From positions 1 to 30,606 of the IMG/VR virus record IMGVR_UViG_3300025009_000312: 30,606 bases of DNA; one strand, given 5' to 3'. This document shows positions 1 to 17,572 of this stretch, piece by piece. The first letter of the stretch is position 1. Each line of letters starts with the position of its first letter. A program made the position numbers and the translations under genes. A model generated the notes under the pieces. The model was not told the DNA's origin, made no database searches, and saw nothing but the letters and a program-made list of their open reading frames with translations. This DNA comes from a virus.

Positions 1-572
1 TTCCCATCAAGCTCCCATTGCATCGCCACGGATGAGGTCGTGTCGGAGTATGGGATGCGGGCGTTGATCGCCGTAGAAAACTGTGTCTGGTGATTATCGA
101 GCGAGTCCAGGAAGCGATTACCGGTTACATATCCCGATAGTGCCGTAGAATCGGAGGCCGCTTTCTTTGTTGCAAGAGCCGCGATCCATTGTGTCTGATG
201 GTCTCCCAATGAATCCAACATTCGGTTCACGGTTGCCAACGTCGTTGTGTCGGTCTTTAGCCAAAATTTTGTCGTGTCTGAGAGCGCCGCACCCTGCCGG
301 AGCGTAAACCCGTCGAAGGTGAGAGCATCCACGTTGCCGCCGACCGTGAGCAGGTATTGGATTGCCACAGAGTCTGAGAGGTTCAACGTCCCGGATCGGC
401 TAGACAACGAATCGGTATATGTGTGACGGAAATCACCGGAAATCCAACGCAATAACGCTGTTCCAATAGATAGCGTCAGCGTCGTATCTGGCACGGGATT
501 TGCCCGGAATTGGTAGTTCTGCCCCACGGCCTGAGAGGCAACGAGGGCAAGTAATGCGAGCGTGCGTTTCAT
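1..572 (-). CDS. Signal-peptide tail-fibre-like protein, partial
   Basis: The gene starts with ATG at 572 and stays open to base 1, so only about 190 N-terminal residues are present and the C-terminus lies outside the window. The first 18 residues are a clear Sec signal peptide: MKR, a hydrophobic run LALLALVA, then AVG followed by QNYQ. The remainder is rich in Ser, Thr and Asp, with DS and DTT pairs and two similar segments containing LDSLGDHQTQ and LDSLDNHQTQ, which suggests a repetitive fibrous shaft. The start overlaps the stop of the upstream tail gene by 4 bases (ATGA), so it belongs to the virion operon. I infer a tail-fibre or surface protein. A signal peptide on a virion gene is unusual. 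No known family recognised. Confidence 0.75.
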   Translation of the reverse strand, partial: MKRTLALLALVASQAVGQNYQFRANPVPDTTLTLSIGTALLRWISGDFRHTYTDSLSSRSGTLNLSDSVAIQYLLTVGGNVDALTFDGFTLRQGAALSDTTKFWLKTDTTTLATVNRMLDSLGDHQTQWIAALATKKAASDSTALSGYVTGNRFLDSLDNHQTQFSTAINARIPYSDTTSSVAMQWELDG

Positions 573-1297
573 TTGGCCTGTAGTCCAATGGTGATCCGGC
601 AATAAAATTTTCCATCCGAGTACGCATTTCCTGCGTCGGCATGCCACACTTGGAACGTAACATCCGTCCCCGATTGTGTGACATTGCCGGCATAGCACAA
701 ACACCCCTGCCGTTCGCGGACTATCAACTCAACAGCATACGCCGCGAGACTGATGGACGGATATGGGTTGCCCGTCGCATCCGTCACCAACACTCCGGCG
801 TTCGTCGTGAGTGTGATCGGAGAGGATTCGTCGCCCGTTACCTCTATCCAGTCTGAGCCGATATACAAGAGCGTGTCCGCAGTAGGTTCAACAAGTTCTG
901 GCCATGTGGTATATGTGATTGTCTCAAGCAGTTGTATGTCATAATACCGCGCGAGAGACGTATCAAACTTCCATTCATTCTCAAACTTCTCCGGGTCAAG
1001 GAGAACGCAATAGACCGACGCAACCGATCCAAAGTATATCCACCTGTCATTCGATTGCAGGAAGTTGAGGACAAAAGCCCTATCCGCGTCTTCCTGCAAC
1101 ACTCCGAGCGTCGCCGTTATGACCCGCCGGAATCCTTTGAACGCCGTCCGAATCGACCCGTCAGACATCTCAAATCGAAGGGGGGGGAAGAGTTCAACTT
1201 TGTCCGGGCGGGTCAGTCCCTTGATGCTAAGCGTGGCGAACGTCCGCGTGTAGGTCGTTGCACCTGAGCGGTACTTGAATGTAATTGTCGAGGCCAC
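569..1297 (-). CDS. Tail protein, paralogue of the next gene upstream
   Basis: 242 aa, starting MASTITFKY. Its N-terminal half aligns by eye with the C-terminal half of the 271-aa protein encoded at 1301-2116. Shared positions include PDxVELF (about residues 31-37), DGS, FRR, a DR pair, then FENxWxFD, SL, Y and LLE. The C-terminal 100 residues, with VTGDESSPITLTTNAG and a Cys-rich CLCYAG stretch, are not shared and may form a separate beta-rich tip domain. Position after the tape measure and tail-tip genes supports a distal tail or baseplate role. Three bases separate it from the upstream gene, and its stop overlaps the next ATG. The exact family is not recognised. Confidence 0.8.
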   Translation of the reverse strand: MASTITFKYRSGATTYTRTFATLSIKGLTRPDKVELFPPLRFEMSDGSIRTAFKGFRRVITATLGVLQEDADRAFVLNFLQSNDRWIYFGSVASVYCVLLDPEKFENEWKFDTSLARYYDIQLLETITYTTWPELVEPTADTLLYIGSDWIEVTGDESSPITLTTNAGVLVTDATGNPYPSISLAAYAVELIVRERQGCLCYAGNVTQSGTDVTFQVWHADAGNAYSDGKFYCRITIGLQAK

Positions 1298-1300
1298 ACG

Positions 1301-2116
1301 CTACACCGGGAACGTCGTTCGGACTGACGGCTCCAATAGACTGAACGAGTAATGCGGCATGAGTGAGCAATCGAAGTCCCACGTATTCTCGAATCCCTCG
1401 GTGTTCTCAAGGCACATTGGCACATTGACCTCCGTCAAATAATCTACCGTTCGGTCGTTATCGATCACCCAATACAGTATAGACTTCATGTCCGTTGTCG
1501 AAGTCACGGGTTCACAATCCACCCATATCTTGCGGCGGAATGCCGTGATCTGGTCCTGCATCGACCCATCCTTGTATCGGTTCTGCGGACCGCCGAACAG
1601 TTCCACACTATCGGGCTTGGACATGCCACGCTCTGCCAATACGTCCAACTCAACGTACTCGGTTATGGCGATATCGTCAAAATAGAAAGTCTTGGCATCC
1701 GAAGCCCAAAGAAGAAAGTCTGTTGCTCCGCTGAGAGATGAAGACTTGAATGTGAGCGCTGTCCACGTGTCTGCTGTCAATACATCCAAAAAGCCAGACG
1801 TGACCCCGCCCGTCTTTATTGTCAGCGCAACTCCGTCAACGTCCGCCGTGTATGCCCACAGGGTTATGCAATATGCCTTCCCCGATACGAATGTGTGATT
1901 GTTCGCGCTCGGTAGCTTAGCGTGGTTCGTTGTCGCGTCCCCCGCGTCTGTGGCAATGACTTTGAATGAATACGTCCCGCCGTGGGCGTAGGTGTTGGAC
2001 TGCGATACGGCATGATTCCCAACCGTCGCCCAATTCCCCACGCCCGATTCCGCGTTCCGATTCGCCAGCGTCGGAAGCGTTGGGGCGTTATATCTCAGCC
2101 GGAACGTATCGGGCAT
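1301..2116 (-). CDS. Tail protein with inserted carbohydrate-binding-like domain
   Basis: 271 aa. The first 12 residues (MPDTFRLRYNAP) and residues from about 155 to the end match the layout of the neighbouring 242-aa tail protein: PDSVELF, DGS, FRR, FENTWDFD, SL and LLE. Between them lies an insertion of about 135 residues resembling CBM4/9-type jelly-roll modules, with an NAESGxGxW opening, a THGG-like AHGGTYSFKV, a GKAYCITLWAY strand and FYFDDIAI near its end. Such modules bind polysaccharides, so adhesion to host glycans is a reasonable inference for this tail-tip location. The start overlaps the upstream stop (TAATG). Confidence 0.8.
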   Translation of the reverse strand: MPDTFRLRYNAPTLPTLANRNAESGVGNWATVGNHAVSQSNTYAHGGTYSFKVIATDAGDATTNHAKLPSANNHTFVSGKAYCITLWAYTADVDGVALTIKTGGVTSGFLDVLTADTWTALTFKSSSLSGATDFLLWASDAKTFYFDDIAITEYVELDVLAERGMSKPDSVELFGGPQNRYKDGSMQDQITAFRRKIWVDCEPVTSTTDMKSILYWVIDNDRTVDYLTEVNVPMCLENTEGFENTWDFDCSLMPHYSFSLLEPSVRTTFPV

Positions 2117-3084
2117 TATGACACTACGCCATCAAGCGAAGAGACAAGGATCGCGCCATTGAGCATCCACGGGATATTCCTGTCTTTCTCGAAATCCCCC
2201 TGAATGTCGATAGCCGCCTGAATGCCCGTCTGATTGTCGAGTGTGAATATCATGCCGTCTATCATCGTCACAATGGCCTTCGCACTGTCAGCCGTTGCAT
2301 TGCCGAGGAGCAACAGATCGGCGTTCAGAGTTGACATCTGATTGAACTTGAGCGCAATATCCCACCCGATAGTGATGGGCCGCTTGAGGTCGTCCGTCAC
2401 CGCAAGGGGGCTGATTGTAAGGTCCAACGCACCGACCGGGGCAATCGTTACACCCGCACCCCCGGCAATGTCCAACTTGACCAAAGAAGCCGCCGCCGAG
2501 TAGATGTGCGTATAGGCCGGGCTTCCGCCGTCCGTGGCCGCCGTGTAAACTCCGATACCGTAGAAGACAGCCGTGGCGGAATCAGCCGATGAAGCAAAGT
2601 CAGCCGCCGCAAGCGTCGGAGTCAGTAATTCAACCTCAGCCGCATCAGTCTTTGCAAACGATCCTTCCCATTCGAGTTCAATAACCCGCGTTCCCTCGGC
2701 TCCGCCTTGAACCACAATACGGGGCTTGACATTGACCTGTGCCGCCGCAACCTTGACCCATCCAGCCGAAGCCGCACCAGCCGCCGCAACTGCGTCAGCC
2801 AGCTTGAACAGGAACAGGTTCGTCCCTCCCCGGAGTGAGTCTAGAAGTTCGCACTCCTGTAACGCACACTGGAGCATCTTTGTGCTTGCCGTGAAGTGAT
2901 ACGCCTTGTTCACTCTGTTGCGCCGGAGTCCGGTCGTAACGGTGAACTCTTCGATGTGAATTTTCGACTCCGCAAGTTCGCCCAAGGTCTGCCACTTGTT
3001 CGAAGTCGTGTCCATGACGTATATCGCCAGAACTGCCGACGAGTTTACGTTTGCGATTGTGCCAGCGATTGCCGGGAATGCCAT
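2116..3084 (-). CDS. Tail structural protein
   Basis: 322 aa, rich in Ala, Thr, Val and Asp, no transmembrane segment, typical of a beta-rich virion protein. It begins MAFPAIAGTIANVNSS and contains a segment around residues 35-75 (ELAESKIHIEEF, LRRNRVNKAYHF). The C-terminal part, with GWDIALKFNQMS and DGMIFTLDNQTG, looks like the closing barrel of a tail-tube or tail-associated subunit. A good Shine-Dalgarno site (GAGGAG) lies 8 bases before the ATG. It sits between the large tail-tip gene and the paired CBM-bearing tail genes. An alternative is a second tube or baseplate ring protein; no specific family is recognised. Confidence 0.8.
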   Translation of the reverse strand: MAFPAIAGTIANVNSSAVLAIYVMDTTSNKWQTLGELAESKIHIEEFTVTTGLRRNRVNKAYHFTASTKMLQCALQECELLDSLRGGTNLFLFKLADAVAAAGAASAGWVKVAAAQVNVKPRIVVQGGAEGTRVIELEWEGSFAKTDAAEVELLTPTLAAADFASSADSATAVFYGIGVYTAATDGGSPAYTHIYSAAASLVKLDIAGGAGVTIAPVGALDLTISPLAVTDDLKRPITIGWDIALKFNQMSTLNADLLLLGNATADSAKAIVTMIDGMIFTLDNQTGIQAAIDIQGDFEKDRNIPWMLNGAILVSSLDGVVS

Positions 3085-3127
3085 GATATTGCTCCTCTAC
3101 TGCGTGAATGGAATGTGACTATTTTCG

Positions 3128-5080
3128 CTATTCCTCAATCCAGAGGACCGTCGTTTCGTTGTTCTCGAAGTCTTTGCGTATCTCGGTGGCGTAGTAGACC
3201 ACATCTGCCGCCGTATTTTGGTCGTAGATTTCAATGCGCTTGAGCGGTGTGATGCTAGAGTGTGACGTTACCCCGGTGTCGTCAAACTTGAGACTACCGT
3301 ACGTGCGTTCGTACATCCTGCGACCTGGCGAGAATCGGCGGTTGTAATACTGCATGACAGCGGTCACCATGTTAGTAACGCCCGTAACCCACGTCGCCGC
3401 ATTGTAATCGTAGTATCGTGCGCCATTTGCAAACTGAAATTCGCCGGGAGAAGCCGCCTCCTCGGTGAAAAGTCCTCGGTAATCGTTCAGGCTCAACTCA
3501 TCTGTGCTGACCGCGTAGGAGACAATGAAAAGCAACCCGATGCCGAGGTCAAATTCTGCGAATTTGGGTGACGGCCTGACCGCGAAGTTGTCCGTCAATA
3601 ACAATGCTGAGGCCGTTTGCGGGTCGTAACCATCTACCTCAATTCCATCAATGGCCCACGACTCCCCAACGGTATGGTCCAAGTATCCGGCCCCAACGGA
3701 CCACGAAACGGTCGTATGTGCCGCGTGGACATCGACGACGCGTATGTTGCTGGTTTTTATGACAGAATCGGAGAACAACGTCGATTGTTTGATTCCCTTC
3801 TCTGGTGTTATCAGCCCGGCGTAGGAATTTCCACGAGTTAGAAATTCCAGGCGGTGTAGGTTATTCGCGGGCGTTGCCGCATCGTACGTACCGTCAGTCT
3901 TGCCGTAGTAATAGCGCACAACCCATCCGAAGTTTAGCGCAATGCGCGTCAGTAACGAAAAGCCGTCGGCAAATTCCGATTCCCACCTATGCGGGTTATT
4001 TGCGTCGTCGTTCTCTCCGTCCAAATATCCATTCTTACTTGACGTTTGTAGTAGTGGCGGAGCTTCTTGATAAATTGTCTTTGTAAGCATGTAGCAATCT
4101 TCGATATTCTTCTCTACCTCCCCACCATTAAATTCCATTTTGAAGTCTGTTGAACGAACCTGTGCCGCCGCCGCATCGTAAGTTTGGTCGAATCCGACAG
4201 ACACAATGCTTGCCAATAAATCGGACATCAGCACCGCATCGGTTTCATAAAGCCCCGCCCAACCATCGGAGAATGGTGTGGCGTGTGTTAATGCCTCGGT
4301 GACAATGTCGGCAATGGCAATATCCTTGATTGAATGTATAAGCGACACCAGCCTTAGCCTCACCGAACGGATTACATCAGTTTCACCCGTTGAGATGTAA
4401 TGCTCCGGCCATTCGACCTCTTCCCGGTACACCTTGCCCCAGAAGTAAAACGTATCTACGCCGTCCTCTTCGAGGATGAACTTGAACTCAACGTTGACCG
4501 TTGGATAGCCCTGAATAACCTTATACCAGAACCCTTGCGTATAGGTCGTGTAGTCCTCAGCAAGTTCGAGTTCGAGGTTCTGGACATCGACCACACCCGG
4601 CTCTACGTCTATAAGTTCTGTCAGAGTCCCAATATGCAAGACCTTGACAGTCGAAGGAATCGTCAACTCCGGGAGCGACGTATCGACAATCAGCGATATC
4701 TTCATCACCCCGGCGGGATTATTCTCAATGTCCGGTAGACTGTACTCGGTGCTGAATCCACGCCCGGTTAGCGATATGGGAAGTGCCGCATTAAATGCGG
4801 TTGCGGTTGTCGTTCCAGTGATATCGTCGGTATGCGTCCCTACCGCCGTTGGCGTGTAAGTAATGTCAACCGTGTGCGTTGCACCGTTCGCCGCAAGCGT
4901 GAACGCATCATCCCCGCTTCCGAATGTAAACGGAGCCGCAAGACCGCCGAGAGCAATGTCTTGCGACGCTGTAGGATCAGAATCATTCGTGAACACGATT
5001 TGAAGCGTTGACAACGCGCCAATCGCAACCGCGCCAAAGTCCAGAGAATCAAGGTCGTGTGTGGTCTGATTGACGGCCAT
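3128..5080 (-). CDS. Large tail-tip/baseplate protein with N-terminal ASH Ig-like domain
   Basis: 650 aa. Residues about 8-108 form an ASH (ASPM-SPD-2-Hydin, 'choice-of-anchor D') type Ig-like domain: LDFGAVAIG, FTNDSD, PFTFGSG, a VDITYTPTAVG strand and a closing ISLTGRG. Such domains are common in secreted proteins of Bacteroidota and relatives. The remaining 540 residues contain alternating acidic beta segments, a tryptophan-rich HRWESEFADGFSLL stretch near 385, and a C-terminus with MYERTYGSLKF. Immediately downstream of the tape measure gene is where distal tail and tail-associated proteins are usually encoded, so it is likely part of the tail tip. The ATG overlaps the tape-measure stop (TAATG). 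Confidence 0.82.
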   Translation of the reverse strand: MAVNQTTHDLDSLDFGAVAIGALSTLQIVFTNDSDPTASQDIALGGLAAPFTFGSGDDAFTLAANGATHTVDITYTPTAVGTHTDDITGTTTATAFNAALPISLTGRGFSTEYSLPDIENNPAGVMKISLIVDTSLPELTIPSTVKVLHIGTLTELIDVEPGVVDVQNLELELAEDYTTYTQGFWYKVIQGYPTVNVEFKFILEEDGVDTFYFWGKVYREEVEWPEHYISTGETDVIRSVRLRLVSLIHSIKDIAIADIVTEALTHATPFSDGWAGLYETDAVLMSDLLASIVSVGFDQTYDAAAAQVRSTDFKMEFNGGEVEKNIEDCYMLTKTIYQEAPPLLQTSSKNGYLDGENDDANNPHRWESEFADGFSLLTRIALNFGWVVRYYYGKTDGTYDAATPANNLHRLEFLTRGNSYAGLITPEKGIKQSTLFSDSVIKTSNIRVVDVHAAHTTVSWSVGAGYLDHTVGESWAIDGIEVDGYDPQTASALLLTDNFAVRPSPKFAEFDLGIGLLFIVSYAVSTDELSLNDYRGLFTEEAASPGEFQFANGARYYDYNAATWVTGVTNMVTAVMQYYNRRFSPGRRMYERTYGSLKFDDTGVTSHSSITPLKRIEIYDQNTAADVVYYATEIRKDFENNETTVLWIEE

Positions 5081-6756
5081 TACATGAGCCTCCCGCCACG
5101 ACCGCGCCTAGCCTTCGCCTGCACCAGCACAAGGTCACTTCCACGCAATACGACATCCATCACAACCGGGCCGGAAGCCGCCGCCATAGCCCCGCCGAAT
5201 CGCGCCATTTTCGCATTCGATACAATCTCTCCACTGCGATTTGGAACGAATAACTCCGGGCCACGTTCGCCGACGATATACGGACGGCCACCGGAGACGG
5301 GGCCACCTGCGGCCTTGAACGCGAACCCACCCATCATGCCTAGTCCGGGGAATATCGTATTCAATATCCCGGCAGAGGCCACTTGCATCGCCATGCTCGA
5401 AAGTGTGGACATGAACGCCCCGGCGAATGAGCCTAGCGCCGTCTGTGCGCCGCCGAACATCTGCGAGAATGCGTTGCCGATCTTCGAGCCTACCATGCCG
5501 GCCATGTTCGAGGTGGCAGAATCAAACGCGGACTCAAGCCCGCCTAAATCGTCGAATACTTCGCCGAATGACTTTGCGCGTTCTCCTGTCGGGCCTTCGC
5601 CTAGTTTGCGCGCCCTGTCCTGCGCCTCGCTTACCCTTTGTGCGGCCTTCGCCCTTGCCGCCGCACCCTTATCCAACCCCTTACGAGCCTTGCCGCCAAG
5701 CCCTGACGCAATCCCGGCGTAGAAACCTTCGCTCTCATCTTCGCCCAACCCGCCCTCGCGGATGCGCTGACGCTCAAGCGTTTCCTTCAACTTTTCCTGC
5801 AGGGTGTATTGCTTCGTGATGTCAGTCTCGAAGAGCAACGCCTCTTTGATGTACCGGATCATTTGCTCAGAACCCTCACCGCGCTTCTGGGCATACTCGG
5901 CTTCGACGCGCATATCTTCCAGTTCGTGCGCCCGTTCCTCACGGCGTTTCGAGAACTGGTCGGATTGTATCTTGTCGCGCTTCTCAATCAAGGCGTTAAT
6001 ACGCGCCTCTTTATTCATCACCCATGTTGCATGCTCTTGGGCGATTGCGTTCTGTCCGCGAAGTCCAGCAGATAGACTGGGTGTGAACTTTTCCTTTTCA
6101 ATCGCCGTAATCTGCTTCGTCAACATTGCAACTTGCGCATCCTTGCCGACACGACCCATCGATATCAATGACTCATTCAATCCCTTCGCCGCCGTGTCAA
6201 ACTCTGCCGTTGCCTTCTTTGCCTCGGTCATCACCCAAACAATACCCGCAATGGCCGCAACCGCCGCCGCTATCGGGCCAGCGTTCGCCATGAGCACCGT
6301 GCCGATCCCCGCGAGTTTACCACCAGCCCCTTGAGCCGCAATGCCAAGGCCGGTCATTGCAAACTCGGCCTCTTGGAACCGTGATGCTACGCCGCCGACA
6401 ACCGCACCTAGCCCAGACCCGGAGCCGCCGAGCATCGACGCAAAACCCGTAATGGCCTGAGTCGATTCCCGCATTGTCTTATCGCCGACCCGTTGCTCCC
6501 TGTAGAACCGACGAAGCTCCTCCCCGGTCTTAAAATAGGACTGCATCATCTTGCCTTGCGCACCGACGATTGGCTCTAAGGCTTGCGTCCTATAATTCTT
6601 CCATTGGTCAATCTCGGCGGCAAGTTCCGGGCGATTCTTTCGCGCCGTCTCTGACAATGCCTTGTACTGCTTTGTCAGTTCTTTGATTTTTGCGTTTACC
6701 GCATCAATCGACCTATCGTCACTCGTTACGGTTATATTTAGTCGGGAGTCGGCCAC
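5080..6756 (-). CDS. Tail tape measure protein
   Basis: 558 aa from a GTG at 6756, which directly follows the stop of the chaperone T frame. The N-terminal 110 residues are charged and helical; residues about 105-195 are Gly/Ala-rich and hydrophobic (LGGSGSGLGAVVGG, GPIAAAVAAIAGIVWVM), the usual membrane-active core of tape measures. A long charged coiled coil follows (about 215-350). The C-terminus has the family hallmark GGRPYIVGERGPELFVP. At the commonly used 0.15 nm per residue this length would set a tail of roughly 80 nm, which is short for a siphovirus. Location between the assembly chaperone and tail-tip genes is canonical. Confidence 0.93.
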   Translation of the reverse strand: MADSRLNITVTSDDRSIDAVNAKIKELTKQYKALSETARKNRPELAAEIDQWKNYRTQALEPIVGAQGKMMQSYFKTGEELRRFYREQRVGDKTMRESTQAITGFASMLGGSGSGLGAVVGGVASRFQEAEFAMTGLGIAAQGAGGKLAGIGTVLMANAGPIAAAVAAIAGIVWVMTEAKKATAEFDTAAKGLNESLISMGRVGKDAQVAMLTKQITAIEKEKFTPSLSAGLRGQNAIAQEHATWVMNKEARINALIEKRDKIQSDQFSKRREERAHELEDMRVEAEYAQKRGEGSEQMIRYIKEALLFETDITKQYTLQEKLKETLERQRIREGGLGEDESEGFYAGIASGLGGKARKGLDKGAAARAKAAQRVSEAQDRARKLGEGPTGERAKSFGEVFDDLGGLESAFDSATSNMAGMVGSKIGNAFSQMFGGAQTALGSFAGAFMSTLSSMAMQVASAGILNTIFPGLGMMGGFAFKAAGGPVSGGRPYIVGERGPELFVPNRSGEIVSNAKMARFGGAMAAASGPVVMDVVLRGSDLVLVQAKARRGRGGRLM

Positions 6757-7029
6757 TTATCTTCGTCGTCGTTCGGCTTCTTTTATTGCCCGTTTATGTT
6801 GCTCTTCCTGAATTGCGTTGTCATACGAACGTAGGTGGAACCACTTCATTGCATCCCGGAGCGTGTAGCGTTTCGCTACTTCATCCCTGCGGGACATCTT
6901 ACCGTCAGCAAGGACGAACATCAGATACTCGCCCATGAACCCGGAGGGAAGTTTGGTTGTTTCGTCCTTCTTATGGAACCGCTTGAATGCAGACTCCCAA
7001 CGCGCTAACTCCGCCGGATCGCCCGCGCA
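6757..7029 (-). CDS. Tail assembly chaperone T-frame extension (-1 frameshift)
   Basis: An open frame of 90 codons lies in the -1 frame relative to the end of the G-like gene and has no credible start of its own; the first ATG would give only 59 aa. It ends with TAA at 6757-6759, immediately before the tape-measure GTG. The protein continues after a tgc codon with GDPAELARWESAF, then a helical WFHLRSYDNAIQ region and a basic KEAERRRR tail. As with lambda G/GT, it is probably made only as a fusion to the upstream product, giving a GT protein of about 230 aa. This conclusion rests on frame layout and gene position. Confidence 0.75.
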   Translation of the reverse strand, partial: CAGDPAELARWESAFKRFHKKDETTKLPSGFMGEYLMFVLADGKMSRRDEVAKRYTLRDAMKWFHLRSYDNAIQEEQHKRAIKEAERRRR

Positions 7030-7448: not shown

Positions 7449-7460
7449 GTGTCCGGCCTT

Positions 7461-7889
7461 CTATTGTAATGGCTCTGTTTTAGTGAATAGTGCATTTCCG
7501 TAGAGTTCCAAAATCTCCGTAATGTCTTCGTCCTGAAACATCATGTACTCGCGTTGGGGCATATTGATATCATACGGATCACCGTCGCCCGGATACTGAA
7601 TGACCCCGCCGAAGTTGTGTATCAATGCGTAAGGGACCGTCCCCGTATCAACAAAGACCGTAGCCTCGTTCTCGTTCCACTCGGCTTGAATCGACTCGAA
7701 AAGATGACCTGAGCGTATCAGCGTCATCCCGCTCCCGCCTGATTTCGTCGGGGGCCATGGATTAGGGCGACCTTGCTCAAGAAAGTTCTGTCTGACCGAC
7801 CGGAGCATGATATCCCCGATTGCGGCCATGACCTGTTCGCGGTCTTCGTTAACCTCCGGCAAGTCGCCCGTTATCTTAACATCAATCAA
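7461..7889 (-). CDS. Phage virion morphogenesis protein, Mu gpG-like tail completion
   Basis: 142 aa from a TTG at 7889. The pattern fits the phage virion morphogenesis family: helical N-terminus with IMLRSVRQNFLEQGRP, then NPWPPTK, then LIRSGHLFESI, VDTGTVPYALIHNFGG and a MPQREYMMF segment near the C-terminus. The L(I/T)xSGxLxxSI and YAxIHxFGG elements are the recognisable parts. Proteins of this family join or complete head-tail interfaces. It overlaps the upstream signal-peptide gene by 8 bases. The non-ATG start is supported by that overlap; there is no in-frame ATG nearby. Confidence 0.88.
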   Translation of the reverse strand: MIDVKITGDLPEVNEDREQVMAAIGDIMLRSVRQNFLEQGRPNPWPPTKSGGSGMTLIRSGHLFESIQAEWNENEATVFVDTGTVPYALIHNFGGVIQYPGDGDPYDINMPQREYMMFQDEDITEILELYGNALFTKTEPLQ

Positions 7890-8838
7890 GATTGGTCCCA
7901 GAAATAACTATGTACGGGTACAGAATCGGGGCCGTTGCTTTCGTTAGTGTGATCGTTGACGGCCAACCCCCACCCGCAGAAAGTTTGTTTGTTGCTATCG
8001 CGATAATCGGGAGCGTTGAGTTCTGGGATGCTTCAACAGCCAGATACATTGAGTTCACGTTTACGACTGGCCCATAAAAAATTTGTGAGCATGTATTGTC
8101 ATTGTAAACCGACCAACAAAAGTATACAATCCCCGGACCTGCAATTGCACCGACTACAAAGGCCGCCCCTTGCCCTGTGCTGTTGGCTGGCCAAGAGGTC
8201 GCCGCTGTCGTGTCGATAAGCGCAAAGTCCTCATCGTACACGCCGACACTCCACGTCCTGACGGCACAACTCCCCCCCAGCGTTGCGGCGGCAACAGACG
8301 CCTCGCCTAGGGCAATCGGCTTTTCAAGATATACCGCAAACCCAACAATTGAATCGTTGAGCGCATTGGTAAAATTGTTTGTTGTCGTGCTGAACCCAAA
8401 CCCCAACACGTCTGGAACAACGATAAAATTGTTCCCGGCGTTGTGTCCAGTTTCAAGCACCGAACGGGCGTACACTGTATCGGCTGGCTTGTCGCGCGAG
8501 GCAACATCAAATGTGTTGGCGGTTGTGAAAGTAACGTCTCCGCTTATGTCGATACTGTCTGGTATTGCAAGCGCCCCGTCTGGGTTATAGATTCCCAACG
8601 CGCTGATGGTATCGATAAACGCGTACACCGTGTCTGGCCCGATTTCATGAAAAGCAGAATCGGTCCCGAAAACATACAGCTTCTGCGAATCCGTGCAATA
8701 GACGGCCTCACGCGATAGTACCGTGTGATATGTGAGTGTGTCCTTCGCGGCCTCAGTCATTCCGCGCAACCGGATTTTCTGCGCATCCGCACCAGTAACC
8801 GCAACAAGCAGAGCGGCAATAGTCAATAGGGTTTTCAT
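7882..8838 (-). CDS. Signal-peptide beta-rich virion-operon protein
   Basis: 318 aa. Residues 1-19 are a Sec signal peptide (MKT, hydrophobic LLTIAALLVAVTG, cleavage ADA before QKIR). The mature part has DTVYAFIDTISALG and ADTVYARSVLE motifs, like stalk segments of surface proteins, then a beta-sandwich-like C-terminus from about 140 with WSVGVYDEDFALIDTT and VYFCWSVYNDN. This resembles receptor-binding domains of phage fibres, but no family is certain. It sits between two tail-completion genes and overlaps both (ATGA upstream, 8 bases downstream), so it is translated with virion proteins. The combination of secretion signal and virion operon is unexplained. Confidence 0.82.
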   Translation of the reverse strand: MKTLLTIAALLVAVTGADAQKIRLRGMTEAAKDTLTYHTVLSREAVYCTDSQKLYVFGTDSAFHEIGPDTVYAFIDTISALGIYNPDGALAIPDSIDISGDVTFTTANTFDVASRDKPADTVYARSVLETGHNAGNNFIVVPDVLGFGFSTTTNNFTNALNDSIVGFAVYLEKPIALGEASVAAATLGGSCAVRTWSVGVYDEDFALIDTTAATSWPANSTGQGAAFVVGAIAGPGIVYFCWSVYNDNTCSQIFYGPVVNVNSMYLAVEASQNSTLPIIAIATNKLSAGGGWPSTITLTKATAPILYPYIVISGTNLD

Positions 8839-9395
8839 ACCGTCCCCCCGTCGATCACTACGTCAGCCGATGGGCCGTCATCCCCACCAGAAACCTCGTA
8901 CATGAATGTGTTTGTCATATTCTTGATACAAATGGTGTACTTGGAATAGAATGCTCCATAGTTCCGGTCTTTGCCAAGAAGTTGAACCGTCTCAACAATC
9001 ATGGGGGTCTTGGCGGTAATGAGCCACTTGGAGCCGGTATATGTGAGATACTTGTTTAGCATCTCCGTTTGCTTCCTCAGCACGTCATGTCTCAGTGACT
9101 CCGCGGCCTCAATCAAGTTCGTTGCCTCATCGTCCGTATCGGTCGTCGCGCTTACCGTCCCTTGCACCCACACATCGACATACAGATCGAACATAGTCCA
9201 CGCGCCATCCCTAGGATCAAGCCTTGTCCTGCCCATCTGTACGCCGATCTCAGGATATGACCTAGCCCTATCGGGAATGGGGCGGATAACCCCGACTACG
9301 GTAGGTGTATTCCGGTAGCCGTTCGCCTGAGTAATGGTCTCGTACTCGGCAATGATCTCATCCCGTGCTTGCTCTATCCGGCTCGTGACTGGCAT
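8835..9395 (-). CDS. Probable tail terminator/completion protein
   Basis: 186 aa. Begins MPVTSRIEQARDEIIAEYETI and continues with GVIRPIPDRARSYPEIGVQMG, then a WTMFDLYVDVWVQG beta hairpin, a helix with LIEAAESLRHDVLRK, and a YSKYTICIKN strand. Helix-strand-hairpin-helix-strand order is typical of tail terminator or minor tail proteins (lambda gpU-like or Gp37-like folds). The position between the head-tail connector and the gpG-like gene agrees with that. The C-terminus is acidic and Gly-rich. It shares a TAATG junction with the connector gene. The fold assignment is inference. Confidence 0.75.
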   Translation of the reverse strand: MPVTSRIEQARDEIIAEYETITQANGYRNTPTVVGVIRPIPDRARSYPEIGVQMGRTRLDPRDGAWTMFDLYVDVWVQGTVSATTDTDDEATNLIEAAESLRHDVLRKQTEMLNKYLTYTGSKWLITAKTPMIVETVQLLGKDRNYGAFYSKYTICIKNMTNTFMYEVSGGDDGPSADVVIDGGTV

Positions 9396-10030
9396 TACAT
9401 CCTCCGAATACGGTAGCGGTCAAGAACGGCCTTCCAGTTTGGCGTTAGGTCCATGTAAGACGTGGAGAACGTCGAACCCGTCCCCGACTCACTCGTTGAC
9501 TGTAGGCCCAAGTGATTGTTGCCAGCCTTACCCTCGTTGAATCCGATTTGAACCATTTCCAGCACAACGCGCTTTACCGGGTCAATGTCAACCCCGGAGA
9601 ACCCGGCCTTGTATGACACCTTGATATTCCTTCGACCGAGCGGGAACGCATCTTGCCACAGTTCGATGTACGGCTTTCGGCTGTCAAGGAATACGTGATC
9701 AACGTCCGAGGCAATGTCCGTCCATGACCCATCCGGCGAGGTCCGGTATTGCAACGCCGCCAACTCCTGAGCATCCGTTGGGCTTGACTCGGTCGAAAGT
9801 TGTGTCACGGGGAAATGATGTGTATAGAGTTTCTGCGAGCCGTCGCCGTCGTGTATCTCATCTGTTACGGATTGCACGACGATCTTACGTCCGCAGTAGT
9901 CCTCAACCTTCGCCGAGCATTGGTCTATCAGCACCTCCAAGAATGCGTCCTTGCCGGTGTCCGATGCGCCTATGTTAAATTGTGCCCTTGCTTCTGCGAG
10001 TGTTACGATTGCGTATGCCGCGAGTGCCAT
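9395..10030 (-). CDS. Head-tail connector protein, HK97 gp6-like
   Basis: 211 aa. N-terminal helices fit the gp6-like connector family: LAEARAQFNIGASDTGKDAFLE, then a helix LIDQCSAKVEDYCGRKIV, the usual 'AsaxiExycgR' signature near residues 35-50. A beta-rich insert follows, with a YKAGF motif near residue 143 and a C-terminal helical region ending in LDRYRIRRM. Such proteins form the ring docking on the portal from which the tail or adaptor continues. Gene order (capsid, decoration-like gene, small protein, connector) supports the call. It overlaps the 71-aa gene upstream by 56 bases. Confidence 0.88.
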   Translation of the reverse strand: MALAAYAIVTLAEARAQFNIGASDTGKDAFLEVLIDQCSAKVEDYCGRKIVVQSVTDEIHDGDGSQKLYTHHFPVTQLSTESSPTDAQELAALQYRTSPDGSWTDIASDVDHVFLDSRKPYIELWQDAFPLGRRNIKVSYKAGFSGVDIDPVKRVVLEMVQIGFNEGKAGNNHLGLQSTSESGTGSTFSTSYMDLTPNWKAVLDRYRIRRM

Positions 10031-10190
10031 TAGTGATAGCCCTGTGCATGGGTGGATTGCTGATTGCCACGTTCACAACTTCAACGGAGTCTCCGAGTTG
10101 CACCGCGCGTTCTGGCGTGAGATCAATCAATTCCCCAACACCGTAACGACGGAACCGCTCGAAGAATGGACGTTTGACTAGGTAGTTCAT
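9975..10190 (-). CDS. Small protein preceding the connector
   Basis: 71 aa. MNYLVKRPFFERFRRYGVGELIDL is followed by TPERAVQLGDSVEVV. This matches short phage proteins encoded between capsid and connector genes (K-PF-RY-GE-I-L-ERA-LG pattern), of unknown function. The last 18 residues are basic, overlap the start of the connector gene and look unconstrained. Its ATG lies 42 bases after the stop of the signal-peptide gene. Confidence 0.7.
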   Translation of the reverse strand: MNYLVKRPFFERFRRYGVGELIDLTPERAVQLGDSVEVVNVAISNPPMHRAITNGTRGIRNRNTRRSKGTI

Positions 10191-10232
10191 AGTTGGTAAC
10201 GGGGGCAGGTATCAGCCGCCCCCGCCACAGTG

Positions 10233-10691
10233 TTACGGATGGTACTTGATCTTCGCCCCGTAGGTAGCCGAGGTCGTTCCGTTTGCACTTGACGCAAACT
10301 CAATACGAATACGGAACTGCCAACCGACTCCGCCGAGTTTATCGACGGCGGGACCGCGCAGAGTCCCCACAACAACGCTTCCCGTGTTGTGCGTATCGGC
10401 AAGCGTTGACAGGGAATCGTACACAGTATAAGACGCGGCGGCACGTCCAACAGGAGAGCGATCAATGTAAACCTTCGTGATCGAAACGGAGTCAGCCGCC
10501 CGAACCTCGAAGACCACATTGTTGTATCCGCCCAGATTGGCCGAGATACCGCTTACGGTGTCGATGTCATCGTCAGCGTAGGAAGTCCCCGTGTTCACAA
10601 TGGTATAACTTCTCCACTGTTGATTCGGGGCTTGTGCCTGGACGCCAACAACAACAAAGACCAGAAGAACGGAGATAAGGAGGTTTTTCAT
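10233..10691 (-). CDS. Signal-peptide protein directly after major capsid gene (paralogue A)
   Basis: 152 aa. MKN, a strongly hydrophobic LLISVLLVFVVVG, then VQA before QAPN make a classical Sec signal peptide. The mature 130 residues are beta-rich. The C-terminal ANGTTSATYGAKIKY matches ANGTTSPTYDAWLEQ of the protein at 12909-13310, and earlier positions also match (SITKVYIDRS with SINVSIRMDYRS; RIRIEF with RVRLIL), so the two are paralogues. A strong Shine-Dalgarno (AAGGAG) precedes the ATG. A decoration or head-fibre protein would be expected at this place; the secretion signal is odd for one. Function unknown. Confidence 0.85.
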   Translation of the reverse strand: MKNLLISVLLVFVVVGVQAQAPNQQWRSYTIVNTGTSYADDDIDTVSGISANLGGYNNVVFEVRAADSVSITKVYIDRSPVGRAAASYTVYDSLSTLADTHNTGSVVVGTLRGPAVDKLGGVGWQFRIRIEFASSANGTTSATYGAKIKYHP

Positions 10692-10704
10692 GATGTTGGT
10701 CTCC

Positions 10705-11811
10705 TTATGCCGAGGTCAAGAGTCGAGCCGTACCTGCTTCGTTCGTCCAGACCTGACCTGCTGATTCCAGAACGCGGATGGCAGACAGGTTCTTTTCCCA
10801 CAGGTTGCCCGCCGTGGTGAGCGACGCTTCCCGCGAGACTTCAACTTCCATCCCGCCACTGGTTCCAAAGAAGCACATCGTCGGGACAGCAAAGCCCACG
10901 AACGCCGTTGAAGCGGCATCCGTCGAAGGCATTCCATCGACCGGGATGAGTTCATGGCCCCACAGTGAGCGGATCGCCGAAGATTCAACGGGCTGACGCA
11001 CAATGTAATCACCCGCAGAGTTTTTAATCTGCTCAAGGTAGGAAATGACGTAGGGGTGAGCGAAGAACTTGGCTTGCGGCCAGTACTTCGGATTCACGGC
11101 CCTACGAAGTCCCTGCAAGTCGTCTGCCGTGAAGTTGGCAATCGACGCACCAGAACCGTTCACATCCACACCCGAAGTCAGGCTCAGAAGCGGAGTGCCA
11201 AACGAGGTAGCGTCCCCGAATGTATTGTCGTCCTCAAACAAGGCCAAAGCCTCGCCGTAAATCTCAGCGAAGTAGCCCAAGAGGTTGACATTCGTATCGC
11301 GGAGCAATTCATTCGACATGGGACTGATAGCACCAGCGACCTTCAATGTCAAGGTCTTTTGGACCAGCGTCGGCTGAGTCTCGCTGAATGCCGTGTTTTC
11401 ACCCGCGACCGACACCGTCACTGAGCCGGTTTCATCCGGGATCAGGATCGACTTCGTGCCGAGGGTGATGTTGCGGCAATACCGACGAGCAACGCCATAC
11501 TGAGCCGCGACACGCGCAATCTCGTTGGCATACTCAACCGGGACCACATACGAGCCGGAGCCGGAGCCTTCGACCAATGTCGCCTTCATCGCGATCATGT
11601 CGGTCGGGTCTCGCCGCCATACGGCATTGAGCCACCTTTTGAAGCGGCCCTCTTTCGTCATCTTCGACAGTTCCTCGTCCTGTGAACCGGGGAACACACC
11701 GTACTTCCGGTCCACCTTGTCAAGTCCTGCCTTTTCGATAGCCTTATCGACGGTCTCGCTCAACAGTTTGGCGAGGTCTTCCATCGACAGTTGAATCACG
11801 TTGCCTTCCAT
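10705..11811 (-). CDS. Major capsid protein, HK97 fold
   Basis: 368 aa from the ATG at 11811, which has AGGAG 10 bases upstream; an ATG six codons earlier lacks a site and overlaps that Shine-Dalgarno. The helical, charged N-terminal 50 residues would be the scaffolding-like delta domain. The core has the family features: a glycine-rich GSGSGSYVVPVEYANEI, then RRYCRNITLGTKSILIP, SETQPTLVQKTLTLKV, the spine-helix region with LLGYFAEIYGEALALFED, and a C-terminal DGMPSTDAASTAFVGF and LWEKNLSAIRVLE. It forms the icosahedral shell and is probably cleaved by the protease encoded just upstream. Confidence 0.95.
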   Translation of the reverse strand: MEGNVIQLSMEDLAKLLSETVDKAIEKAGLDKVDRKYGVFPGSQDEELSKMTKEGRFKRWLNAVWRRDPTDMIAMKATLVEGSGSGSYVVPVEYANEIARVAAQYGVARRYCRNITLGTKSILIPDETGSVTVSVAGENTAFSETQPTLVQKTLTLKVAGAISPMSNELLRDTNVNLLGYFAEIYGEALALFEDDNTFGDATSFGTPLLSLTSGVDVNGSGASIANFTADDLQGLRRAVNPKYWPQAKFFAHPYVISYLEQIKNSAGDYIVRQPVESSAIRSLWGHELIPVDGMPSTDAASTAFVGFAVPTMCFFGTSGGMEVEVSREASLTTAGNLWEKNLSAIRVLESAGQVWTNEAGTARLLTSA

Positions 11812-11847
11812 GATTATAGTTCTCCTCATGGATTGTGAATGTATCGG

Positions 11848-12696
11848 TTAAACCCTGCCCCGTCTTCGACTAATGACCCTATCGACCGCATCACTAAGCA
11901 AGACCCGCGCTTGGTCTGTCGTGAGCGTTTCGACTGTCATCCCCGCCGTCTTAGGCATGAGTGTTTTGAGTTCTTCAATCTGTGCCACTAATGCGGCCTC
12001 TCGGCCAGCAAATTCTTCTTTGAGTCCATCGATCACCGCATCAATGTCGGGCATCTTCTCCCGGCATGATTCGAGTTCACATATCCGCTTCTCGGTCAAC
12101 GCAGACTTGAGCAACCCCCGCATCTCATCCGACCGCGACAGGTCAAGTGCCTGCGACAACGCCCGCCGTTCGACTGCGTTTGGATTGGCGGGAATCGGAA
12201 CGAGGGAGTATTCGAGCAATTCCCACTTGCGGAAAATGAACACCTGAGACTTCGGGTCGAAGTCTCCACGGTTGACCGGGTTCAAATCATTCACGTCCTC
12301 AAGTGCCGCAAGTTCAATCCCCGTAGGAATGAACCCGATAGATGTGGCGGGCATAAGTCCTTCCTTCGCCAACGCCCACGCATCCCGCGCCAATGGCGTG
12401 GCATCGGAAAATATCGTCTTAGCAATCAAGGACTCCCCCTCCTGCTTCACCCATGCGGAACGTCCGATAATTGGAATCTGGTCGCCCATTGCCCGATAGT
12501 TGTGGCCGAAGAGAACGACCGGGTTCTTGTCGTAATTCCGCTTGTCAACTCCATTCGGGTCAACGATCTCTTGTGAGCGGTCAATGGTTGAATCTGTAAT
12601 GACGTGGACGATTGAACGCTCTTCCACATTTACAGACTTTATACCGATAGACCTTTCAAACCGTCCGGCTTCGCCTTCCTTCAGTCTGGGTTCCAT
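11848..12696 (-). CDS. Prohead protease, HK97 (S78) family
   Basis: 282 aa from ATG at 12696, which overlaps the stop of the 69-aa gene (TAATG). A longer frame upstream exists but runs through that gene and has no family match. Catalytic elements are visible: His at 65 in LFGHNYRAMG, and Ser at 119 in MPATSIGFIP, with the usual DRSQEIVDPNG strand before them. The C-terminal 90 residues are a helical, charged extension (LKEEFAGREAALVAQIEEL) that probably acts as scaffold. The protein matures the prohead by cleaving scaffold and capsid delta domain. Confidence 0.93.
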   Translation of the reverse strand: MEPRLKEGEAGRFERSIGIKSVNVEERSIVHVITDSTIDRSQEIVDPNGVDKRNYDKNPVVLFGHNYRAMGDQIPIIGRSAWVKQEGESLIAKTIFSDATPLARDAWALAKEGLMPATSIGFIPTGIELAALEDVNDLNPVNRGDFDPKSQVFIFRKWELLEYSLVPIPANPNAVERRALSQALDLSRSDEMRGLLKSALTEKRICELESCREKMPDIDAVIDGLKEEFAGREAALVAQIEELKTLMPKTAGMTVETLTTDQARVLLSDAVDRVISRRRGRV

Positions 12697-12905
12697 TACT
12701 GTAACCCCTTCGGATAATATGTGGCTAGATTGACCGTGGTTTGCCGTGGTGCCACACAGTCTAACTCCATTGGCATGACAAAGTCGTGCGATTCCAGGCA
12801 AGCGGCCTCTGCTAGTTCTTTTGTGCTGAACACTCCCAAAAGTTCCCATGCGGTTGTATCGCCCACAATCGACCTAAACTGACCAGCAATGTACAGGGTA
12901 TTCAT
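12696..12905 (-). CDS. Small conserved-type phage protein
   Basis: 69 aa, starting MNTLYIAGQFRSIVGDTTAW, followed by ELLGVFSTKELAEAACLES. The YxxGxFR, WELLGVFSTxExAxxAC pattern resembles small phage proteins that respond to 'FST-E-A' type alpha/beta folds; function unknown. An AGAGGTGAG Shine-Dalgarno, shared with the stop of the upstream signal-peptide gene, precedes the ATG. Its own stop overlaps the prohead protease start. Placement between portal and protease is unusual for an essential head gene, so it may be accessory. Confidence 0.8.
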   Translation of the reverse strand: MNTLYIAGQFRSIVGDTTAWELLGVFSTKELAEAACLESHDFVMPMELDCVAPRQTTVNLATYYPKGLQ

Positions 12906-12908
12906 GGC

Positions 12909-13310
12909 TCACCTCTGCTCAAGCCAAGCATCATACGTCGGGCTTGTAGTCCCGTTCGCAGTTGTCTTCCGCGTCAGGATCAGCCTTACCCGTTCCGCGC
13001 CGGGGATATTGTCGGCATTCTCATACCTGAGTGCAAAACCCTTCCAGTAGCCAACGGCGTTCGTTGAATCCGCCTCCACGTTGTAAGACTGGAATAGGGT
13101 TGTAGCCGCCTCTCCGCTTCGATAGTCCATGCGGATAGAGACGTTGATCGACTCCGCCGTATAGATAACAAGTGTGTATGACCGCATCGGATGGATACTC
13201 ACCCATGCCGTAGTATCGGTCGTCGCAAACGATGAGTCATTCGCAAGCGTAATCGGCTGGGCCTCGGCCACAGTAAATACGAACAACGCCATAATTGCTA
13301 AGCGTTTCAT
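12909..13310 (-). CDS. Signal-peptide protein between portal and protease (paralogue B)
   Basis: 133 aa. MKR, hydrophobic LAIMALFVFTV, and AEA before QPIT form a Sec signal peptide. The mature part (about 116 aa) is beta-rich with no cysteines. It shares with paralogue A (10233-10691) a C-terminal ANGTTSxTYxA motif and an internal SIxV...YRS region followed by a DSTNAVGYWKGFALR stretch (compare DTHNTGSVVVGTLRG in A). The start overlaps the zinc-ribbon gene stop (ATGA). Possible roles are head decoration or modification of the host surface; nothing in the sequence decides. Confidence 0.83.
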   Translation of the reverse strand: MKRLAIMALFVFTVAEAQPITLANDSSFATTDTTAWVSIHPMRSYTLVIYTAESINVSIRMDYRSGEAATTLFQSYNVEADSTNAVGYWKGFALRYENADNIPGAERVRLILTRKTTANGTTSPTYDAWLEQR

Positions 13311-13492
13311 TGTGCTTCCTCTCTGATTGAATTTGATTCGGGCCTCAGCCCACGACTGTCTTTACCGCATTCATAACAATGGAATATGTTCTGTGACTGC
13401 CACTCCGTCCGCTCTGCATCATGCCCGCAATGTTCACAGGCAATACGCACGGTCGTGGGAATCTTAGACCACCGGCTCACTATTTCCGACAT
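13307..13492 (-). CDS. Zinc-ribbon mini-protein
   Basis: 61 aa from ATG at 13492 (MSEIVSRWSK), overlapping the portal gene's 3' end by 29 bases. Two metal-binding knuckles are visible, CEHCGHDAE and CYECGKDS, spaced 20 residues apart, the typical pattern of a zinc ribbon. This may help fold a small nucleic-acid- or protein-binding unit, but the function is unknown. A longer frame from 13549 exists but its added residues have no features. Confidence 0.8.
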   Translation of the reverse strand: MSEIVSRWSKIPTTVRIACEHCGHDAERTEWQSQNIFHCYECGKDSRGLRPESNSIREEAQ

Positions 13493-14684
13493 TCTCAGTC
13501 CCCAGGGGTACAAGGTTTGACGGAACGAGCAACGTATCTCCACCCTCAACCGGGTCGTATCCCTGCGCCGTCCGTTCTTCGTTAATTGTCGTCAACCCCT
13601 GAATGCGAATGGCCGCAACCCTAGCCACACGCTCTTCGTCGTTTGATACCGTGCTGTCGTGCTTAATGATAAGTTTGGGATCGAACTTACGCGCCAAGTC
13701 CTGCGTGAGCCGTTCGTCCATCAATTCAAGGATCGGTTCTACCACATTCCGGCTGAACGTGTAATCATTCGCCTCAGCATTGGCTCGGTTCACATCCTCA
13801 ACCAATCCCAGCTTAGATGCCGGAACACCGAATGCCGCGAGAATATCATCTCTCGTTGATTTGTTTGTCGCCAGCCAGTCTAGTTCTTTCGGGTTAATGC
13901 CAATGCGCTCAATCGACAACCCACCCTCTAGGATGGGAGTCTTACCCGATCCGCCCGGGCCGCCATACTCACGGTTCCAATCGGCCTTCATCTTGTTGCG
14001 CGTGTCATCCCTCAACTCCGTGTTGGTCTTTAGCGCATACGGGGGGATGGCAAAGTTCTTGTAAAATTGACGCTGATACTCATGCTGAAATTCGTCAATG
14101 TCTGAAGATGCGGCGGCGGCCATGAGGACGGATTGACCATAGTAGAATGAGGACGGATTGGGGTGCTTGAAGTGAATAACCTCAGATGGGTCGAAGGGAA
14201 TGACCTCTTCCCCGTTCTGCAACTCATACCGGGCAATCTCACCCGATTTGGTGGGGACTATCTTCATCCTATCTGCTGGCAGTGACCACAACTCGGCGGG
14301 AATCTTCAATCCACTCATGGGTGCGTACCAGTATGCGTCCCCCGTCAAGTCCTGATGGGCTGATGTCACGTAAAGCATTTCCCGTTTGGTCGCTACGGGG
14401 TTGACCTCATCCAGTAGGATAACGAGCGGGTGGTCCGGGCGAACCTCAACAAGATCGTCCGGCCCCTTCTTGACATATACCCTGAACCTCGCACCTGCGA
14501 TAGCCTTTGCGCGGATAGACACACATGAATACACCCACGACTTGTATGATGCGAGCATCGCAGACTTATCGCCACGTCTATCAATTAACCCAGTCTGTTG
14601 CTCATGCCCACGGACTCCGTAGATGTTCGGGATGCCCTTGCGAAATACGTCTAGGGCGAGAGATGCGCGTTGAATGAAGTTCAT
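13464..14684 (-). CDS. Portal protein, HK97 family
   Basis: 406 aa. Family landmarks in order: SWVYSCVSIRAKAIAGARFRVY near residues 48-69, DHPLVILLDEVNP, QDLTGDAYWY, PSEVIHFKHPNP, YGQSVLMAAAA, the GPGGSGKTPILEGG loop, ATNKSTRDDILAAFGVPASKLG, and NVVEPILELMDERL. This covers the wing, stem and crown parts of the dodecameric portal through which DNA is packaged. Length is normal for the HK97 type. The start overlaps the terminase stop by 4 bases. Confidence 0.95.
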   Translation of the reverse strand: MNFIQRASLALDVFRKGIPNIYGVRGHEQQTGLIDRRGDKSAMLASYKSWVYSCVSIRAKAIAGARFRVYVKKGPDDLVEVRPDHPLVILLDEVNPVATKREMLYVTSAHQDLTGDAYWYAPMSGLKIPAELWSLPADRMKIVPTKSGEIARYELQNGEEVIPFDPSEVIHFKHPNPSSFYYGQSVLMAAAASSDIDEFQHEYQRQFYKNFAIPPYALKTNTELRDDTRNKMKADWNREYGGPGGSGKTPILEGGLSIERIGINPKELDWLATNKSTRDDILAAFGVPASKLGLVEDVNRANAEANDYTFSRNVVEPILELMDERLTQDLARKFDPKLIIKHDSTVSNDEERVARVAAIRIQGLTTINEERTAQGYDPVEGGDTLLVPSNLVPLGTENVGNSEPVV

Positions 14685-16677: not shown

Positions 16678-16717
16678 GTCAACTGACGGCGCATTATCTG
16701 GTCTAGTGGTTTCATTG

Positions 16718-16784: not shown

Positions 16785-16803
16785 ACTCCGTTTAGGGCGG
16801 ATG

Positions 16804-16888
16804 CGGAGGGCGTAGGATTCGAACCCACAAACCCCTTGCGGGGAACTGGTACTCAAGACCAGCGCAATCGCCGTTCTGCCAGCCCTCC
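16804..16888 (-). tRNA. tRNA-Ser(UGA)
   Basis: A class II tRNA of 85 bases. Acceptor GGAGGGC pairs with GCCCTCC; anticodon stem CTGGT/ACCAG holds loop CTTGAGT with anticodon UGA (codon UCA). The long variable arm CCCC-GCAA-GGGG is characteristic of serine tRNA. T-arm GTGGG TTCGAAT CCTAC has one wobble pair. The discriminator is G73 as required for Ser; CCA is not encoded. Confidence 0.92.
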
Positions 16889-16907
16889 AATGCGACACTC
16901 TTGCTTG

Positions 16908-16979
16908 TCGGAACAACAGGATTTGAACCTACAACCAATGGCTTATAAGACCACTGCGCTACCGTTGCGCTACACGCCA
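16908..16979 (-). tRNA. tRNA-Ile(UAU)
   Basis: 72 bases. D-arm GCGC-AACGGTA-GCGC, anticodon loop CTTATAA with anticodon UAU (codon AUA), T-loop TTCAAAT, discriminator A. The acceptor stem TGGCGTG/TGTTCCG is weak: one C-U mismatch and four G-U wobbles. Bacteria normally read AUA with a CAU tRNA carrying lysidine, so a UAU tRNA is a distinct solution. Confidence 0.75.
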
Positions 16980-16984
16980 AAGTG

Positions 16985-17056: not shown

Positions 17057-17070
17057 TAATCTGACGGCTT

Positions 17071-17099
17071 AAGATACAAATTTGCATCCTACAATGCAA
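17071..17099 (-). promoter_or_regulatory. Promoter of the tRNA cluster
   Basis: -35 TTGCAT (17094-17099), 17-base spacer, -10 TATCTT (17071-17076) on the minus strand. The -10 and the G before it match the other two TATCTT promoters in the window. It lies in the gap after the last early gene (stop at 17123), so the tRNAs have their own transcription start. Confidence 0.72.
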
Positions 17100-17122
17100 G
17101 GCGTGAGCTTCCTCCTATACCC

Positions 17123-17572
17123 TCATTGTTTCCTCTTTAGATACTCCATGAATCCGGGGAGGGTGGGGGGATTGCGCGGCGCATAGTAACCAACGTCTTT
17201 GAGTGGGTAGAAGTATTCCACTCCCTCGTTAATGCGAACGCTGTCCAATTCTCCGCCCGTAATCCACGTATGTCTCACCGTATCTCGACTGCACTCGGCG
17301 ACATATGCGTCCCATACTGAGACCTGAGTGCGTGCGTGAAGCGCAATGAATGCCTCCAATAGTGTTCGACCGTACACGGTATCGGGGCCGACAATGAATC
17401 GGATAATCATGTCACCCGTACTTGATTCGTCGAATGTGTCGAAGTATATGTTCCCCGCTTTTTGGTTCGCCAACCGTTGCATCTTCCACAGGTCGCGGAG
17501 ATCGGCTTGGTTCTGCCCCACCCCCACCTGCGTTGCAAGGGCTACAGCTAGGATGATGAGTAGGTGTCTCAT
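17123..17572 (-). CDS. Signal-peptide protein at the end of the early operon
   Basis: 149 aa. Signal peptide MRHLLIILAVALATQ, cleavage likely at GVG before QNQA. The mature 130 residues contain a helical start (DLRDLWKMQRLANQ), a VGPDTVYGRTLLEAFIALHAR segment whose DTVYxRxLLE part recalls ADTVYARSVLE in the 318-aa protein at 7882-8838, and a single cysteine. It is the last gene before the tRNA promoter, 4 bases after the upstream gene's stop. It is the fifth secreted-type protein in the window and the only one outside the virion operon. Function unknown. Confidence 0.82.
   Translation of the reverse strand: MRHLLIILAVALATQVGVGQNQADLRDLWKMQRLANQKAGNIYFDTFDESSTGDMIIRFIVGPDTVYGRTLLEAFIALHARTQVSVWDAYVAECSRDTVRHTWITGGELDSVRINEGVEYFYPLKDVGYYAPRNPPTLPGFMEYLKRKQ

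Follow-up and report, generated by a model that had tools for sequence, protein, structure and literature searches.

The window analysed here, the linear IMG/VR virus record IMGVR_UViG_3300025009_000312 at its full length of 30,606 bases, is a siphophage-type genome with its genes on the minus strand in the order TerS, TerL, portal, protease, major capsid protein, head-tail adaptor, neck, tape measure, and tail genes (Table 1). Five genes of this strand, designated by their start positions 572, 8838, 10691, 13310, and 17572, encode proteins that begin with a Sec/signal peptidase I (SPase I)-type signal peptide followed by Gln. The N-termini, with a slash at the predicted cleavage site, are MKRTLALLALVASQAVG/QNYQ (572), MKTLLTIAALLVAVTGADA/QKIR (8838), MKNLLISVLLVFVVVGVQA/QAPN (10691), MKRLAIMALFVFTVAEA/QPIT (13310), and MRHLLIILAVALATQVGVG/QNQA (17572, with ALA/T given as an alternative site). 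The signal peptides were called by a rule-based scan that looked for a basic n-region, a hydrophobic h-region, and small residues at −3 and −1, and which detected a signal peptide followed by Gln in none of the remaining coding-strand genes of the window. These start codons and N-termini on the minus strand confirm the five proteins with a Sec signal peptide and Gln at +1 that an earlier note on this DNA had described; of these, 17572 lies outside the virion block, upstream of two tRNA genes and TerS. Between the window and the contig L004, 9 differences occur in 4694 aligned bases, all within 20 bases (window 17520–17539); they fall in the 17572 signal peptide (LATQVGVG in the window, IATQYATG in L004), the Gln and the mature part being the same, and could reflect strain variation, replacement of a short local patch, or an artefact of assembly.

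The same scan passed 8 of 2550 residue-shuffled virion-region proteins (0.3%), compared with five positives among about 45 coding-strand genes of the window (P about 3e-7) and four among about 17 genes from the portal to 572 (P about 2e-7). Strong Shine–Dalgarno sites precede 10691, 13310, and their homologues in the related contigs L005 and L006, and an ATGA overlap with the stop codon of the preceding gene occurs at 572, 8838, 13310, and both signal-peptide genes of another contig, L117; because these elements are positioned at the signal-peptide Met, translation very probably starts there. The scan gives false positives in non-coding frames, but with such start sites, the low shuffle rate, and the conservation in L005, L006, and L117 described below, chance or wrongly chosen start codons are a very improbable origin of the five signals. 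An excess of promoters ahead of the signal-peptide genes was looked for and not found, nor were separate promoters of the moron type. The +1 residue is Gln, not Cys, in all five window proteins, leaving no lipobox, and no Pfam or NCBIfam match to a C-terminal sorting domain of the type IX secretion system (T9SS) was obtained for the signal-peptide proteins of the window.

The survey of related phages that the earlier note had proposed revealed signal-peptide genes after the portal, capsid, and adaptor genes in L006 and after the capsid gene in L005, and a signal-peptide fibre gene in L117. By portal identity, the closest relatives are L005 (57%), L006 (52–55%), and L007 (51%). All of the signal-peptide genes at the three sites in L006, and the single one in L005, encode Gln at +1; L007 has no signal-peptide gene between portal and protease, and its contig breaks off within the capsid gene. 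Compared with its L006 orthologue after the portal, 13310 shows 42% identity in the mature part, and it is paralogous to 10691 by BLASTP (E 3e-4) and by profile comparison (E 2e-6). L117 combines an unrelated head with the same tail block as the window (48% identity over a 650-amino acid (aa) protein, window 3128–5080), and its fibre begins with MRHALYILLLFPMLAFS/QDYLFRANPVPNT, compared with MKRTLALLALVASQAVG/QNYQFRANPVPDT in the window; the two signal sequences are divergent, but the type of signal, the Gln, and the beginning of the mature protein are retained. The head signal-peptide genes thus track the head of the window, L005, and L006, and the signal-peptide fibre tracks the tail that the window has in common with L117, a phage with another head. 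A homology of 8838 to the L117 signal-peptide protein was unsupported (BLASTP E 0.09), and neither 8838 nor 13310 has relatives among 50,697 named phages. Judged from these alignments, the signal peptides are not products of chance, as they recur in the same slots of relatives while their sequences diverge.

One further contig, L030, is identical to the window over positions 1–13277 and extends 4.4 kb beyond the window end, thereby completing the 572 gene. This fibre gene is followed in L030 by a sixth signal-peptide gene (LSPA/QERP; DUF5658, E 2e-4), a holin-like gene, and then a GH108 endolysin gene, which is separate and encodes no signal peptide, so that the lysis-related secretion offered in the earlier note is not favoured. 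At its other end, L030 differs from the window at 21 positions within 13278–13884, up to the L030 contig end, the divergence starting inside the 13310 signal peptide.

Altogether, the window, L030, L005, L006, and L117 encode 12 signal-peptide proteins, and all 12 have Gln at +1, the cleavage sites of 17572 and L006:3005 having been picked among plausible alternatives, for which the P values allow. In Bacteroidetes, cleavage by SPase I leaves Gln at the new N-terminus of most substrates, and this Gln is then cyclised in the periplasm (PMC5837995, PMC10653852); 12 of 12 is hard to explain otherwise than by signals processed in such a Q-rule host. The residue matters to periplasmic processing in these hosts and not to a virion anchor in the cytoplasm, and its presence argues for signals that are in use. 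Q-rule values are high in Bacteroidetes, yet Ignavibacterium album also reaches 77% (PMC5837995), so that the host phylum is not fixed by this residue; the host hint in the earlier note is thus supported as to the Q-rule type, whereas a Bacteroidota-like host is only suggested. A look-up of the host by genome scan with the portal alignment gave distant matches only (24–31% identity), and Shine–Dalgarno use (16/40 window genes versus 8/37 in Nonlabens phage P12024S, counted slightly differently) did not settle the matter. In seven cultured Bacteroidota phages, no Gln+1 signal-peptide gene was detected by the scan, the signals being of the lipoprotein and membrane types only; in Flavobacterium phage 11b, a small lipoprotein-type signal gene is located between the capsid and head-tail adaptor genes (L125:12286-12552).

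The mature parts look like virion-type proteins, either decorations or fibres, to judge from their sequences and slots. The 572 fibre matches the phage collar fibre gp4 (9d93, E 0.001), and its residues 527–597 match Bdellovibrio Bd3182 (8ojn, E 7e-8); its C-terminus matches gp74 of EBPR siphovirus 2, a hypothetical protein whose gene lies close to one with recorded similarity to a tail protein, and no Pfam match to an S74 chaperone domain was found in its 1027 aa. Directly past the signal peptide of 8838, residues 22–56 give a weak Mtd_N match (E 0.0035; 17.7 bits, below the Pfam cut-off of 26.3). Bordetella phage Mtd itself is not known to carry a signal peptide. In Cellulophaga phage phi12:1, the position comparable to that of 8838, between the genes for head closure and neck, is occupied by a gene annotated as a collagen-type tail fibre, on which the rule-based scan found no signal peptide. 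Finally, 10691 and 13310 are small beta proteins of the head module, the former encoded after the capsid gene and the latter after the portal gene. In slot, size, and beta content they resemble the decoration and collar proteins that phages encode in the capsid-adaptor cassette, but ordinary proteins of that kind are produced in the cytoplasm and have no signal peptide, and the window proteins match none of their sequence families.

Further signal-peptide proteins, none with Gln at +1, are encoded in the capsid-adaptor cassettes of distant, uncultured relatives (portal identity about 30–32%), namely L057, L071/L073, L075, L085, L086, and L095, and several have signal-less orthologues (Table 1); those of L057 and L086 have no relatives in the 50,697 named phages. 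The L095 protein is predicted to be cut after AYA, leaving AGSSTTIT, which lines up with MAGTLSLS, the beginning of the signal-less form; the signal is thus an addition to an otherwise complete virion-cassette protein. A cut that restores the N-terminus of a homologue is unexpected if the hydrophobic N-termini were structural or membrane-association elements that serve assembly in the cytoplasm and are possibly cleaved off by the phage protease, in the way that a survey treats the SignalP hits on capsid proteins of Porphyromonas gingivalis phages as phage-protease-cleaved (PMC10367356). Such a role is quite improbable, given that all 12 proteins have Gln at +1, that the charged n-region and the small −3 and −1 residues are classic, and that a fibre and a neck-region protein would be unexpected as protease targets. 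The sporadic gain and loss of signals among orthologues of other phages, together with the two localised replacement patches that end within signal peptides, would also agree with signals recombined from host or other phage genes and merely tolerated, the virion-type proteins being exported without a selected function outside. Conservation of the signals on several genes at 51–57% portal identity, with Gln+1 retained, renders this unlikely, though less so than the structural role.

Tailed phages are commonly assumed to complete their virions in the cytoplasm. We propose that the virion block encodes accessory virion-type proteins with functional Sec signal peptides, comprising the small beta-sandwich proteins by the portal and capsid genes, a protein of possible Mtd_N type close to the neck, and the long fibre at the tail end. 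These would be translated within the late operon, exported via the host Sec system, and cut by the host SPase I before the Gln, which would probably be cyclised to pyroglutamate. As neither a lipobox nor a T9SS domain was found, a soluble periplasmic product is expected, to be released with the virions at lysis; having no recognised anchor, the mature proteins would build up in the periplasm until lysis brings them to finished virions, where they would most likely bind to the capsid, neck, or tail as decorations or fibres. Holding them outside the cytoplasm would prevent binding to unfinished particles. We infer export and cleavage from the signals, their conservation, Gln+1, the operon placement, the virion-type homologues, and the cassette pairs, and regard export as very likely. 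Mounting on virions after lysis is a hypothesis to which we give somewhat less than even odds, and our probability for the whole series of export, cleavage, periplasmic pool, and joining of virions at lysis is about 0.42. Among the three options of the earlier note, a decoration added after export fits best, as a prediction.

Exported phage morons such as Lom, Cor, Bor, and Llp carry signal peptides on genes near tail modules, and Lom, Cor, and Llp act on the host envelope. The window proteins could likewise act late on the envelope (receptor masking, blocking of superinfection or rebinding, secreted adhesins) and not in the virion, with virion folds reused as binding domains. Lom, Cor, Bor, and Llp are, however, outer-membrane barrels or lipoproteins with their own expression, whereas the window proteins are virion-type and coupled to virion genes. 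The genomes of P. gingivalis phages (Nixviridae) are reported to contain five Q-rule SPase I genes of unknown function, read as envelope modifiers with a suggested outer-membrane role (PMC10367356; noted also in PMC10653852). They share with the window the SPase I signals, Gln at +1, and use of host export, but, unlike the genes studied here, are not described as virion-type genes beside portal, capsid, or tail, nor as having signal-less relatives. The fibre, moreover, resembles the mosaic adhesive trimer (MAT) fibres of Bdellovibrio, which are themselves signal-peptide-bearing surface fibres with a conserved beta domain of ~130 aa after the signal peptide (PMC10769870). Both combine a signal peptide with phage-fibre-like modules, as reflected in the Bd3182 segment match; MAT fibres belong to the bacterial cell surface, whereas the 572 fibre is a phage gene product of a tail operon in which no S74 domain was found. 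The absence of a lipobox and of a T9SS sorting domain leaves an envelope role, including the surface remodelling considered in the earlier note, with no visible route to the outer surface or anchor there, and independent surface factors would not be expected to be coupled to portal, capsid, and tail genes or to co-segregate with head or tail modules. We thus hold envelope action to be a credible alternative with the odds against it, and judge virion binding slightly likelier, both from the coupling and joint inheritance of these genes with head or tail modules and from the existence of signal-bearing and signal-less versions of cassette proteins of this kind.

Several points weigh against virion binding. 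Virion membership of both the signal-peptide and the signal-less cassette proteins is predicted from sequence, the pairs belong to families other than the five proteins of the window, and no signal-less orthologue of those five was found. In the distant relatives, signal peptides are not enriched downstream of the portal (11/476, versus 12/506 upstream). The decoration-like look of the small proteins derives from slot, size, beta content, and weak matches. The structure prediction and Foldseek search suggested in the earlier note yielded for 13310 an all-beta model of 7 strands with modest confidence (predicted local distance difference test score (pLDDT) 66), generic beta-sandwich structure matches only, and no Foldseek PDB hit under E 0.001, and for 8838, folded alone, a pLDDT of 32. 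If the fibre is the receptor-binding protein, its mounting after lysis would also have no known precedent. The feature itself is real and unusual, combining known parts, and a search of the open-licence literature found no earlier description of tailed-phage virion proteins of the decoration or fibre type that carry signal peptides. Recurrent export signals on such proteins would imply either an extracytoplasmic last assembly step or a class of secreted virion-like proteins acting on the host or its neighbours, for which the signal-bearing and signal-less orthologues provide natural pairs for comparison. A broader pattern, in which some tailed phages finish their virions outside the cytoplasm by mounting Sec-exported, periplasmically matured decorations and fibres only at lysis, and in which orthologous decoration genes of unrelated phages acquire and lose signals, is less likely than not.

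Table 1 Signal-peptide genes and neighbouring genes of the window, and cassette signal-peptide genes of distant relatives
Feature	Position	Strand	Remarks
Tail-fibre-like signal-peptide protein	1..572	minus	Cut by contig end; complete (1027 aa) at L030:1932-5015
Signal-peptide protein before neck/tail-completion gene	7882..8838	minus	318 aa; weak Mtd_N-like match
Small beta signal-peptide protein directly after major capsid gene	10233..10691	minus	Strong Shine–Dalgarno; homologues in L005, L006
Small beta-sandwich signal-peptide protein between portal and protease	12909..13310	minus	Paralogue of 10233-10691
Signal-peptide protein	17123..17572	minus	149 aa; no known family
Portal protein	13464..14684	minus	PHROG 2662, E 3.5e-74
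Head maturation protease	11848..12696	minus	PHROG 80; start picked within open reading frame 11848-12849
Major capsid protein	10705..11811	minus	PHROG 10, E 5e-34
Head-tail adaptor	9395..10030	minus	PHROG 442
Neck/tail completion protein	7461..7889	minus	PHROG 26
Tape measure protein	5080..6756	minus	PHROG 5062
Tail genes common to window and L117	569..5080	minus	Last one overlaps fibre start (ATGA)
Cassette signal-peptide protein	L057:8630-9712		Signal-less orthologue L043, E 2e-7
Cassette signal-peptide protein	L071:17582-18259		Signal-less orthologue L095:11484, E 1e-9
Cassette signal-peptide protein	L075:9155-9799
Cassette signal-peptide protein	L085:10035-10895		Signal-less orthologue L046, E 2e-39
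Cassette signal-peptide protein	L086:17271-17876
Cassette signal-peptide protein	L095:11033-11476		Signal-less orthologues L043, L041, L080, L057, L058, L072; best E 8e-24

Other features of the window were recorded alongside these genes. A small zinc-finger open reading frame is located between the portal gene and 13310. In the tail block, the product of 1301–2116, adjoining a similar gene at 569–1297, has a weak match to the carbohydrate-binding family CBM_4_9 (E 4e-4); it resembles a distal tail protein into which a sugar-binding segment is inserted, and may form the receptor-binding part. Next to the terminase small subunit gene, positions 16803–16979 encode tRNA-Ser(TGA) and tRNA-Ile(TAT). 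Toward the other end of the window are a protein with several copies of the motif K-T-Y-(E/Q)-D-G-(C/R)-A-Q-L-(L/W) (27562–28164), a DNA methyltransferase-like region in two frames (28387–29296, as 28387–28950 and 28925–29296), and an RlaP-type nucleotidyltransferase of RNA repair (29675–30514; Pfam E 6e-19).
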